Origin: Chloroflexota bacterium
Lineage (GTDB): Bacteria > Chloroflexota > Anaerolineae > J036 > Brachytrichaceae
Direction: 5' to 3'
Length of the DNA: 64,000 nucleotides
NCBI GenBank assembly: GCA_030550095.1
Contig: JAUQQA010000005.1
Span: 1 to 64,000, forward strand
The notes below the pieces were generated by a model. That model was not told the DNA's origin and searched no databases. It saw only the letters and a program-made list of their open reading frames with translations. The first letter of the stretch is position 1; every line of letters starts with the position of its first letter. Position numbers and translations under genes: made by a program. Positions 2,743 through 37,466 of this stretch are shown here, piece by piece.

Positions 2743-3795
2743 TCAATCGCGCCAGTTGCCGGTCTCCCACTTCTTGAGGAAAACGTCCGCCTGCTCGGGC
2801 GTGGTGACGAGATCGAAGCCGGTGTCCACGAACGGCGGATACTCTTTCTTGTTCACCACGATATCGTAGAGGATGCCCACGGCGTCGTAGCCCCAGCCGT
2901 AGAACTTCTGCCCGATCAGCGCATGTACCAAGCCCTGCTTGAGCAAGCGCAGCTCGCTCTCCAGGATGTCCCATGCTACGGTCTTCATGCCGCGCTTGGC
3001 AGCCTCTTGGAACTTGGGCATGGCGTTGATGTCGCCGAAGAGAGGCCACGCGCCAGCCATGAAGTAGCCCGCAAGATCGGGGTTTGCCGTCAGGCGGTTC
3101 TCCACCACTTCGACGCCCTTCTGGATATCGTCGTAGCATGGGTCGGTGGCGACCCACTGCAGGCCGGCTGGGTCGGCAACCTCGCGGAAGGCTTTGATGC
3201 GCGCCTCGAGGTTCTGCGCGCCGGGCACGCCGGTGAGGATGGCGTAGGTCTTGTTGGCGCTATCCTTGAGCAGGTCCACCATGATCTCGGCGCCTTTGCG
3301 CGCGGCGGCTTCGTTGTCCAAGCTGTAGAAGGTGATGCGCTTGGAGTTGGGCGAGTCCGAGTCCCACGTGATCACAGGGATGCCCGAGTCCATGGCGCGG
3401 TCGATCACCGGCTTAAGCGCGTCGGGGTCGTTGCAAGAGATGCCCATGCCGTCCACCTTGCGCGCGATAGCTGCGTCGAGCAGCTCGGCTTGCTTTTGGG
3501 CGTCTGCCGTCTCTGGACCGACCCACTCCACGGTGATGCCGAGTTCTTTCGCTTTGTCCATCGCGCCGCGGCGCGCCACGTCGAACACGGGGTTGTTCAC
3601 CGCCTTGGGCGACCAGACGAAGGTCAGCGGCTTGGTGCCGGCTTGAGGCGCTTCGGTGGGTTGCTGGGGTTGTGGCTGCTGGGGTTGCTGCGGCGCAGCG
3701 GGTGGGGGTGCGGCGCAGCTTGCGAGCGCAACGGCGCCAGCGGTCAAACCAGCCGCGCGAAGAAACTCACGACGGGAAAGACGTTTGTTGGTCAT
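2743..3795 (-). CDS. Sugar ABC transporter substrate-binding lipoprotein (ribose/CUT2 type)
   Basis: This is the extracellular receptor of the importer encoded upstream. The 350-residue protein starts MTNKRLSRREFLRAAG, a twin-arginine motif followed by a hydrophobic stretch and the lipobox LASC, then a tether rich in Pro and Gln. The body is a periplasmic-binding-protein type I domain (PF13407-like), with AINNPVFDVARRGAMDKAKE-type N-terminal strands. The start is set by an AAGGAGGA ribosome site at 3803-3810. A 98-nt gap separates it from the permease gene. The sugar is not predictable. Confidence 0.88.
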   Translation of the reverse strand: MTNKRLSRREFLRAAGLTAGAVALASCAAPPPAAPQQPQQPQPQQPTEAPQAGTKPLTFVWSPKAVNNPVFDVARRGAMDKAKELGITVEWVGPETADAQKQAELLDAAIARKVDGMGISCNDPDALKPVIDRAMDSGIPVITWDSDSPNSKRITFYSLDNEAAARKGAEIMVDLLKDSANKTYAILTGVPGAQNLEARIKAFREVADPAGLQWVATDPCYDDIQKGVEVVENRLTANPDLAGYFMAGAWPLFGDINAMPKFQEAAKRGMKTVAWDILESELRLLKQGLVHALIGQKFYGWGYDAVGILYDIVVNKKEYPPFVDTGFDLVTTPEQADVFLKKWETGNWRD

Positions 3796-35478: not shown

Positions 35479-35985
35479 ATGGCGCTCAAGGATTACTACG
35501 CGATCATCCAAGTGCGCGCAGATGCCGACCCAGCGGTGATCACCGCAGCCTATCGCGCGTTGGCGGCGAAGTATCACCCCGACCGCAATCCAAGCCCAGA
35601 GGCAACGCGCATGATGCAGGAGCTGAACGAAGCCTACGAGGTGCTCAGCGACGAACGCGCGCGCGAAGCCTATGACCGCAAGCGGCGGCTGGAGGCACAC
35701 CTCAACGGCAACCGCACCGAGCCAAGCACTGCGTCGGCACCTGCCCTAAGCGAACTTGCCGCGCGTGAGCGCCTGGAGCGCGCCCTGCGGCGCATCCGCG
35801 AGATCCAAGAGCGCGCCCTCGAGCAGATCCGCCAAGTGCAAGAGCGCAGCAACATCCAGGTGCGCGACATCCAAGAGCGCGCCGCGCAGCAGATCAACGA
35901 AGTCCGCGAACGTGCCGCGCAGCAAATCCTCGAGATTCAAATGCGCGCCCTGGAGCAAATCCGCGCCATCCAAGAGACGCTGTGA
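35479..35985 (+). CDS. J-domain protein with hendecad-repeat tail
   Basis: A 168-residue protein. Residues 1-70 are a DnaJ domain (KDYYAIIQVRADADPAVI, the HPD tripeptide in KYHPDRNP, and ELNEAYEVLSDERAREAYD), so it should stimulate a DnaK ATPase. There is no Gly/Phe region, zinc finger or substrate-binding domain. Instead, residues 106-168 are a regular 11-residue repeat of the form IxxIQERAxQQ, about six copies, predicted as a right-handed or hendecad coiled coil. ATG 35479 is preferred over GTG 35467, which lies at the expected transcript start. It overlaps the nitroreductase gene by 4 nt. Confidence 0.85.
   Translation: MALKDYYAIIQVRADADPAVITAAYRALAAKYHPDRNPSPEATRMMQELNEAYEVLSDERAREAYDRKRRLEAHLNGNRTEPSTASAPALSELAARERLERALRRIREIQERALEQIRQVQERSNIQVRDIQERAAQQINEVRERAAQQILEIQMRALEQIRAIQETL
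35794..35982 (+). repeat. 33-bp tandem repeat encoding 11-residue units
   Basis: Units start at residues 106, 117, 128, 139, 150 and 161 (IREIQERALEQ, IRQVQERSNIQ, VRDIQERAAQQ, INEVRERAAQQ, ILEIQMRALEQ, then a partial IRAIQETL). A weaker copy may precede them at residue 95. Copies differ enough to be old and selected. Confidence 0.9.
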
Positions 35986-36764
35986 GCGCTCCAAATTTAC
36001 ACAACCCCGTCATCGCCCAGATCCACCAACACGCCTCGGTGCGCCGTTACAAACCCGACCCCGTGCCGCGTGCGTGGATCGAGGCCATTGTCGCAGCAGG
36101 GCAGCGCGCGGCGACCTCCTCAAACCTGCAAGCCTATAGCGTCGTCGCCGTGACCGACCCCGAAGTGCGACGCGAGGCGGCGCATTGGTGCGGCGACCAG
36201 GCGCACGTCGCCGAAGCGCCTGTCTTCCTCGTGTGGTGTGCTGACCTCAGCCGCCTCGACCGTGTATGCGCACTGCGCGGCGTGCAACAGGTGACTGAGT
36301 ACGTGGAGAACTTTTTGGTTGCCGTGGTGGACGTGGCGTTGGCGATGCAAAACGCTGCGTTGGCGGCGGAGTCACTCGGTTTGGGCACGTGTTACATCGG
36401 CGGCATCCGCAATCACCCGCGCGAGATCATCCGGCTGCTCGGCTTGCCGCGCCTTACCTTTCCTGTGGCGGGCATGACGATAGGATTCCCAGCGGTGCAA
36501 CCGCAACCGCGCCCGCGCTTGCCGCTGCGCGCCGTGCTGCATTGGGAGCGCTACGACCGCAGCGAGGAGGACGAGGCGCTGCGCGAATACGACCGCGTCA
36601 TGGCGGCGACAGGCATCTACGAAAGGCGCCAAATTCCCGTTCCCGGCAAACCTGATCAGCTTGAAGATTACGGCTGGCTCGAGCACACTGCGCGGCGCGT
36701 CTCCCAAGCGGTGCGCACTCACCTGCGCGCGATCCTAGAAGAGCAGGGGTTTGCGCTGCGGTAA
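35982..36764 (+). CDS. Nitroreductase family FMN oxidoreductase (NfsA-like)
   Basis: A 260-residue protein from GTG 35982. Flavin-binding features include SVRRYKPDPVPRAWIEAIVAAGQRAATSSNLQAYS, VDVALAMQNAALAAESLGLGTCYIGG and LPRLTFPVAGMTIGFP. The layout and length fit NADPH-dependent NfsA/FRP-type reductases of the nitroreductase superfamily. The physiological substrate is unknown. The GTG overlaps the J-domain stop (GTGA), so both are probably translated from one mRNA. Confidence 0.9.
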   Translation: MSAPNLHNPVIAQIHQHASVRRYKPDPVPRAWIEAIVAAGQRAATSSNLQAYSVVAVTDPEVRREAAHWCGDQAHVAEAPVFLVWCADLSRLDRVCALRGVQQVTEYVENFLVAVVDVALAMQNAALAAESLGLGTCYIGGIRNHPREIIRLLGLPRLTFPVAGMTIGFPAVQPQPRPRLPLRAVLHWERYDRSEEDEALREYDRVMAATGIYERRQIPVPGKPDQLEDYGWLEHTARRVSQAVRTHLRAILEEQGFALR

Positions 36765-36833: not shown

Positions 36834-37400
36834 TTACTTCTCCGGTTGGAGCAAGCCGTAGCCACCCTTCTTGCGTCGGTAGGCGACCTTGATGCGACCG
36901 TCGTCTTGGTGCACAAAGACGAAGAAGTCGTGCCCAAGCAGCTCCATTTGCTCAATGGCTTCTTCCACGCTCATTGGGACGACCTCAAAGGTCTTGATGC
37001 GCACGAGCTTCGGCTCAGGCTCAGCGGGAGGCGCTTCAATGGGCAGCGGTTCTGCCTCGAGCAGCTGCTGATCCACTTCGGGGAGAGCCGCGCCGTTGCG
37101 CTTGCGGTCAATGCGCCGCCCCTTGTAGCGAGCGATGCGCTGGTACATCTTGTCGAGCGCGGCGTCGAAGGCGGCGAACGGGTCAGGGTTGCGCTCCTCC
37201 ACGCGCAGGAGCGTGCGCCCACGGCGGATGGTCAGCTCAACGGACTTGAGGGCGTCGCGCTTGCTGCTTTCGCGTGTGAACTCCACATGTACGTCCTCGA
37301 TGCCCGGGAAGTAGCGGTCGAGCTTAGCGGCTTTGGAGCGCACATACTTCTCGAGCCGCTGGCTGACGATCATGCTGTGGCCGTGGATGTTGATCTGCAT
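36834..37400 (-). CDS. hpf: Ribosome hibernation promoting factor, long form
   Basis: Binds the 30S decoding region and dimerises 70S into inactive 100S particles. The 188-residue protein has an N-terminal HPF/RaiA domain (INIHGHSMIVSQRLEKYVRSK, DVHVEFTRES) with a Pro/Glu-rich linker. The C-terminal dimerisation domain is KLVRIKTFEVVPMSVEEAIEQMELLGHDFFVF. The start is set by GGAGGAAGTGCC directly before ATG 37400. Between it and the nitroreductase gene is a 10-bp inverted repeat (36769-36812) without a T run. Confidence 0.95.
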   Translation of the reverse strand: MQINIHGHSMIVSQRLEKYVRSKAAKLDRYFPGIEDVHVEFTRESSKRDALKSVELTIRRGRTLLRVEERNPDPFAAFDAALDKMYQRIARYKGRRIDRKRNGAALPEVDQQLLEAEPLPIEAPPAEPEPKLVRIKTFEVVPMSVEEAIEQMELLGHDFFVFVHQDDGRIKVAYRRKKGGYGLLQPEK

Positions 37401-37466
37401 GGCACTTCCTCCAAATACCGACAATCCCTTACAGCGCGGCGTTGCGCTATGGTTGGAATTGTGCCG

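Follow-up and report, generated by a model that had tools for sequence, protein, structure and literature searches.

A J-domain protein with a conserved and narrowly distributed hendecad tail in Chloroflexota

The J-domain gene and its neighbourhood

The window, i.e. the whole stretch of 64,000 nucleotides that was analyzed, carries on its forward strand an open reading frame (35479..35985, ATG to TGA) coding for a 168-aa protein in which a J domain is joined to a tail of 11-residue repeats. The J domain (PF00226, E=1.3e-21) spans residues 5-66 (35491..35676, forward strand), with the HPD motif at positions 33-35. It is followed by a fast-evolving linker (residues 67-94; 35677..35760, forward strand; dN/dS 0.40 in eight g7 genomes of the family), of which residues 78-88 are predicted to be disordered (pLDDT<50). 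The tail, residues 95-168 (35761..35982, forward strand), consists of seven units delimited by periodicity and register, and AlphaFold2 places it in a single helix of residues 90-167. The units read ARERLERALRR (95-105, weak), IREIQERALEQ (106-116), IRQVQERSNIQ (117-127), VRDIQERAAQQ (128-138), INEVRERAAQQ (139-149), ILEIQMRALEQ (150-160), and IRAIQETL (161-168, a partial unit of 8 residues).

The stop codon of the J gene shares a 4-nt overlap (GTGA, 35982-35985) with a nitroreductase-family gene on the same strand (35982..36764). Among the genera of the host's family, termed g1 to g8 here, this overlap recurs in genomes G015 (g1; GTGA) and G012 (g5; ATGA); in g7, the nitroreductase gene is not located beside the J gene. 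The overlap suggests coupled translation of the two genes in g1 and g5, and by extension their products may be functionally linked. A gene for ribosome hibernation promoting factor (HPF, S30AE family) lies on the reverse strand at 36834..37406; HPF and ComFC genes are found in convergent orientation near the J gene in g1, g5, and g7. The shared neighbourhood supports orthology of the J genes of these three genera, but is no evidence of a shared pathway, because HPF and ComFC are encoded on the opposite strand and are not neighbours of the J genes with the second type of tail described below. In genome G014, labelled g1, the HPF and ComFC genes and a pyrophosphatase gene are present, with a gap that holds trpE- and trpG-like genes (L104 6399-9748; names based on reading of the translations, not on a family search); neither a J gene nor a remnant of one was found in this gap.

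The genome of the host comprises 2.35 Mb and is 97% complete. Three of its proteins match the query at E<=0.001, namely the J-hendecad protein itself, a 378-aa frame, which by our reading would be canonical DnaJ, and a 294-aa frame, which appears to be CbpA-like. Five HSP70-family matches were obtained, three of them strong (G000 C3, C62, and C55); we read the strong ones as a complete DnaK gene and a second one that is split over two contig ends adjoining canonical dnaJ.

Classification of the protein

DnaJ was the only Pfam match above cut-off in the 168-aa protein, and neither the Pfam scan nor direct reading of the sequence revealed a G/F-rich stretch, a zinc finger, or a DnaJ C-terminal domain. 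A J domain with HPD but without G/F, zinc, and C-terminal substrate domains is what defines the class C (type III) J-domain proteins, and by its domain composition the protein falls within this class. Y25, H33, P34, D35, N37, and other residues of the J domain are invariant in 18 of 18 homologues. Outside the J domain, no Pfam or NCBIfam family was matched above cut-off. Assignments to canonical DnaJ (DnaJ_bact, score 76.7 vs. an NCBIfam cut-off of 377.2), to the curved DNA-binding protein CbpA (62.8 vs. 403), to TopJ (75.9 vs. 300), and to HscB (20.7 vs. 46.75) were rejected.

The original prediction, made from the DNA letters alone, of a J domain with HPD joined to a hendecad tail is thus borne out by the PF00226 match, the register, and the lag and Fourier tests reported below. 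Its "about six copies" were correct as to the 11-residue units but not as to their count, which is seven if the weak first and the 8-residue last unit are included. The predicted lack of a G/F or zinc-finger region held, and so did the statement that no named family is known to have such an architecture: only the general DnaJ family passes the Pfam and NCBIfam cut-offs, and no open-access paper was found that combines a hendecad with a J domain or DnaJ. Likewise, no description of a class C J protein with a hendecad tail was found in the open-access PMC literature, the coverage of which mostly excludes subscription journals, nor one of a J domain with a right-handed coiled coil. Judged by their listing, the open-access papers joining DnaJ with an 11-residue repeat concern alpha-synuclein or amyloidogenic proteins. 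The original prediction is supported in part: the oligomer, the straight or right-handed coil, and the targeting of DnaK to a membrane or filament that it raised are hypothetical.

Periodicity and register of the tail

Residue identity within the tail was 0.48 at lag 11; in 1000 shuffles, no lag from 5 to 29 gave more than 0.36. At a period of 3.667, the Fourier power reached 146.6 (shuffle maximum, 91.6); the heptad period of 3.5 had a power of 2.1. A chance origin of the repeat was rejected on both measures. The Fourier peak at 3.65 by itself cannot tell a period of 18/5 from one of 11/3; however, because the identity peaks fall at lags 11, 22, and 33, the period is 11/3 rather than 18/5. 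The tail, an 11-residue sequence repeat that is predicted to be helical, is a putative hendecad coiled coil. Units within the protein share 53% identity, whereas position-matched units of relatives in different genera are 98% (L004/G015), 71% (L005/G012), 64% (L006/G020), and 60% (L010/G017) identical. Since the units match position by position across genera better than they match each other within the protein, a recent expansion of the repeat was rejected.

In the type of tail present in the window protein (type I), position a is occupied by I/V/L in 97% and position d in 86% of the units, h is mostly A/S/T, and e is Gln in 83%. The stripe formed by d, h, and a is narrow and is flanked by near-invariant Gln residues at e and k.

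Homologues and their two tail types

J-hendecad proteins are encoded in 18 of the 28 genomes of the host's family. They were detected in all genomes of g7 (9/9) and g5 (1/1) and in part of those of g4 (4/5), g1 (2/3), and g8 (2/3), and were absent from the genomes of g2 (0/4), g3 (0/2), and g6 (0/1). Among named relatives, the closest one detected is Thermoflexales bacterium SKYG100, with 90% identity across 168 residues; Thermoflexales belong to Chloroflexota. Degenerate or variable-period tails, an outcome that the original prediction had named as speaking against it, were not seen: all 18 homologues possess seven hendecads, with a best Fourier period of 3.64-3.67, i.e. the 11/3 period.

The tails fall into two types. 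Type I (12 proteins, in g1, g5, and g7) follows the motif IxxIQERAxQQ, with I/V at a and d, Q at e, R at g, A/S/T at h, and Q at k. Type II (6 proteins, in g4 and g8) is rich in Ala, Glu, and Arg, with A at a, E at b, W/Y/F or R at e, and R at g and j. Arg at g and Ala at h are common to both, but a comparison of the two tail profiles gave no detectable sequence similarity. The share of charged residues (K/R/D/E) is 53% in type II (two proteins computed) and 35-39% in type I (three proteins computed). Type II tails moreover carry a 33-residue super-repeat, with a lag-33 identity of 0.44-0.60. In L018 (1777-2031), for example, it is made up of three hendecads, of which two have an aromatic residue at e and the third has Ile at c, so that the hydrophobic pattern of the type II tail shifts once per three units. 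When a single clade was tested in the J-domain tree, p-AU was 0.156 for all 18 proteins and 0.449 for type II; the J domains of all homologues may or may not form one clade, and the same holds for a single origin of types I and II.

A search for the J-plus-hendecad architecture across Chloroflexota, as proposed in the original prediction, recovered full-length members, among the matches listed, only in the host's family. The J-plus-tail profile, applied to 396 genomes of the class with the best 8 candidates per genome scored, had matches in 149 genomes, and among those listed only the 18 proteins of the host's family matched end to end. With the type I tail profile alone (best 13 candidates per genome), 6 of 400 genomes of the phylum were matched, all of the host's family, and with the type II full-length profile at E<=1e-32 (best 8 per genome), 1 of 400. 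A pattern scan of genome contigs, an insensitive search that also took in phyla other than Chloroflexota, yielded three loci, of which only L022 has a hendecad tail. Eleven J-domain loci were found on viral contigs, and in the seven whose frames were read no hendecad tail was recognized by eye. On the viral contig L120 (~3001-3201) lies a 170-aa frame for a short J protein whose tail is long, charged, and probably helical; neither G/F nor a C-terminal domain, nor by eye an 11-residue repeat, was observed in this protein.

Selection on the tail

In eight g7 genomes (28 pairs), Nei-Gojobori dN/dS was pooled by region: the J domain gave 0.046, the linker 0.397, and the tail 0.035, and the coil of ATP synthase subunit b from these genomes gave 0.045. 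G017, the remaining g7 genome, has a linker and C-terminus of different length and was for this reason excluded from the pools. The g1 pair gave 0.022 for the J domain, 0.016 for the tail, and 0.008 for the ATP synthase b coil; the value of its linker was not measurable due to saturation of synonymous sites. These ratios reject neutral evolution of the tail; its rate is as low as that of the J domain and of the ATP synthase b coil, and the tail is therefore functional.

Resolved by helix position, pN was 0.058 for the stripe a/d/h, 0.029 for the polar positions, and 0 for the Gln flanks e/k, with not a single nonsynonymous change in 13 columns. The stripe did not differ significantly from the rest (permutation p=0.056), and constraint extends to every face of the helix. 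The invariance of the Gln flanks suggests specific packing.

Predicted structure and profile matches

The AlphaFold2 model (18 sequences) comprises the J domain, disorder at residues 78-88, and one 78-residue helix (90-167) with block pLDDT values of mostly 91-93; pTM was 0.40. Disorder across residues 95-168, the other outcome said to count against the original prediction, was therefore not seen, as the monomer is a confident helix there. For a type II relative, a helix of residues 88-176 was predicted, with blocks averaging 92-97 along most of it. Both are monomer models, in which a coil and a membrane helix look alike. A Foldseek search of the PDB with the model returned J-domain structures. 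The best match of the tail profile to a solved structure was the designed helical bundle 4uos (E=1.5e-5), the score of which adds up from weak segments, none of them significant by itself. Weak matches were obtained to CCT-alpha (4mvd, E=0.0026), the peptide 1peh (0.014), and apolipoprotein A-I (~0.6). The Pfam Apolipoprotein model matches 12 of the 18 members (best E 3.9e-5); the window protein scores 13.3 bits with Apolipoprotein A1/A4/E (PF01442), below the gathering cut-off of 90 bits. In mean hydrophobicity and moment the tail closely resembles the CCT-alpha piece, though these measures do not separate a membrane helix from a coil.

Possible function of the hendecad tail

The J-hendecad architecture is real, conserved, and narrowly distributed, and the mechanism outlined here is plausible. 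We see about an even chance that the gene product is a class C J-domain co-chaperone with a hendecad rod which self-associates, or pairs with another coil, and so displays J domains to DnaK. The action of J domains on DnaK is established for the J-domain family, and the J domain of the window protein, being intact, would stimulate ATP hydrolysis by one of the two DnaK proteins of the cell. Through a flexible linker of ~25 residues it would be connected with a straight ~77-residue helix, which at 0.15 nm per residue would measure ~11.5 nm. The interface of the coil would be made up of the Ile/Val stripe at a and d, the small residues at h, and the near-invariant Gln residues at k and e, and the tail would associate into a rod or bundle that lacks left-handed twist. 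Several J domains would then be displayed together, and DnaK recruited to whatever the rod belongs to. To our knowledge, the way in which bacterial class C J proteins are directed to their clients is mostly unknown; in the J-hendecad protein, the whole targeting part would be a single repeated helix.

Most likely, the tail packs against itself or another coil; this is favoured over a lipid surface because Gln at e and k is near-invariant and because every face is constrained. Subunit b of F-type ATP synthase and the E-G stalks of the A/V-type enzymes, which are hendecad right-handed coiled coils and, as far as we know, lack a J domain, share the 11-residue period, and the constraint on the J-hendecad tail is similar to that on b. 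The E and G subunits are described as rich in Ala, Glu, and Arg (PMC6131620), like the type II tail, a likeness of composition and period and not of family membership; according to the same paper, the stalk hendecads tolerate substitution while the pattern is kept. Some findings argue against a coil. Gln occupies e in 83% of the type I units, though this position is usually hydrophobic in hendecad coils (PMC6131620). The stripe a/d/h varies a little more than the remaining positions, where a plain two-stranded coil would lead one to expect less change, and the weak matches of the tail profile, which besides the designed bundle, a point in favour of a coil, include membrane-binding 11-mer helices, speak against a simple coil.

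These matches bear on the main rival, which we consider rather unlikely: the tail, as an amphipathic helix of 11-mer units comparable to domain M of CCT-alpha, apolipoproteins, and perilipins, would lie on a membrane or lipid surface and recruit DnaK to the membrane. Targeting of lipid droplets by 11-mer helices is known (PMC4807253) and counts in its favour. The tail shares with the helices of CCT-alpha, apolipoprotein A-I, and perilipin the 11-residue amphipathic units, and with the CCT-alpha piece the hydrophobicity and moment; profile matches extend to CCT-alpha (4mvd, 1peh) and apolipoprotein A-I, and to the Pfam Apolipoprotein model in 12/18 proteins. The stripe is bordered by Arg residues at b and g, with acids at f and c, a wheel layout which we take to be class A-like. 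However, lipid helices usually allow drift of polar residues, whereas the polar face of the tail is as constrained as its stripe; the Ile/Ala stripe (d, h, a) is narrow with near-invariant Gln flanks, and with 13.3 bits against a curated cut-off of 90, the window protein falls far short of an apolipoprotein assignment. Constraint on all faces would also be expected if the helix were embraced by another protein, as in a docking helix for one client or scaffold with a long coil of its own, which would make the J protein a dedicated adaptor and not a self-assembling rod. This seems unlikely to us. In its favour, a search of the host's own genome turned up no other protein with a tail of this kind, so that any docking partner would differ in sequence; the type II tail profile had six matches across the 28 family genomes, all of them J proteins. 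Against it, no operon is conserved across both tail types, which occur in different neighbourhoods, and in g7 even the coupled nitroreductase gene lies elsewhere.

The constant number of seven units in all 18 proteins, despite the sequence difference between types I and II, and the high charge of type II (53%) would suit a monomeric single helix acting as spacer or ruler. Nevertheless, we regard such a role as quite improbable, because the continuous Ile/Val stripe of type I and its charge of only 35-39% are poor features for an isolated soluble helix, and the residue-level constraint exceeds the needs of a spacer. Returning to the associating rod, every member retains seven hendecads although the residues are wholly replaced between genera (Ile/Gln in type I, Ala/Arg/aromatic in type II), which raises the tentative idea, in our estimate rather unlikely, that selection acts on rod geometry and length. 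The tail would then be a fixed-length multivalent scaffold for J domains or a DnaK-recruiting fibre, its function defined by assembly and not by a client-binding site. As two natural versions with equal numbers of units exist, a tail swap would directly test geometry against residue identity in J-protein function.

Other J-domain proteins of Chloroflexota

Of 29 further Chloroflexota J proteins, 27 were read (L057 and L058 were left out), and many share the type of J domain but differ in the C-terminal part. The charged helical tails of two proteins (L047 of G109 and L054 of G132) lack the 11/3 period, with peaks at 3.35 and 3.31, respectively; a third J protein with a helical tail (L056, G109) was left out of period scoring. 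Several of the 27 are J proteins of the Q-V-x-P-x-A-E-P-E-V-I type, which are often short and have a J domain very similar to that of the window protein and a variable C-terminal module; in place of hendecads, this part holds a cyclophilin, a B-box-like module, or hydrophobic segments. A class-wide set (L050, L051, L043, L044, L049, and L059-L061) combines near-identical J domains with differing C-terminal modules: cyclophilin in L050, a B-box-like zinc finger (below cut-off) in L051, and, judging from the sequence, hydrophobic and probably membrane segments in L043, L044, and L049; L061 shows weak FtsK-gamma-like and S25-like matches. It looks as if the Chloroflexota J domain has been joined to many modules. 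In one survey, genomes with multiple dnaK genes made up a larger share of Chloroflexi, 54.5% of 55 genomes, than of any other group (PMC11019930), and an expanded set of J proteins in Chloroflexota may help explain the division of DnaK paralogues. Genome G021 (g7) encodes a second J protein (L021 1231-1725, reverse strand) with the same type of J domain and, in place of a hendecad tail, a hydrophobic, probably membrane-spanning C-terminus.
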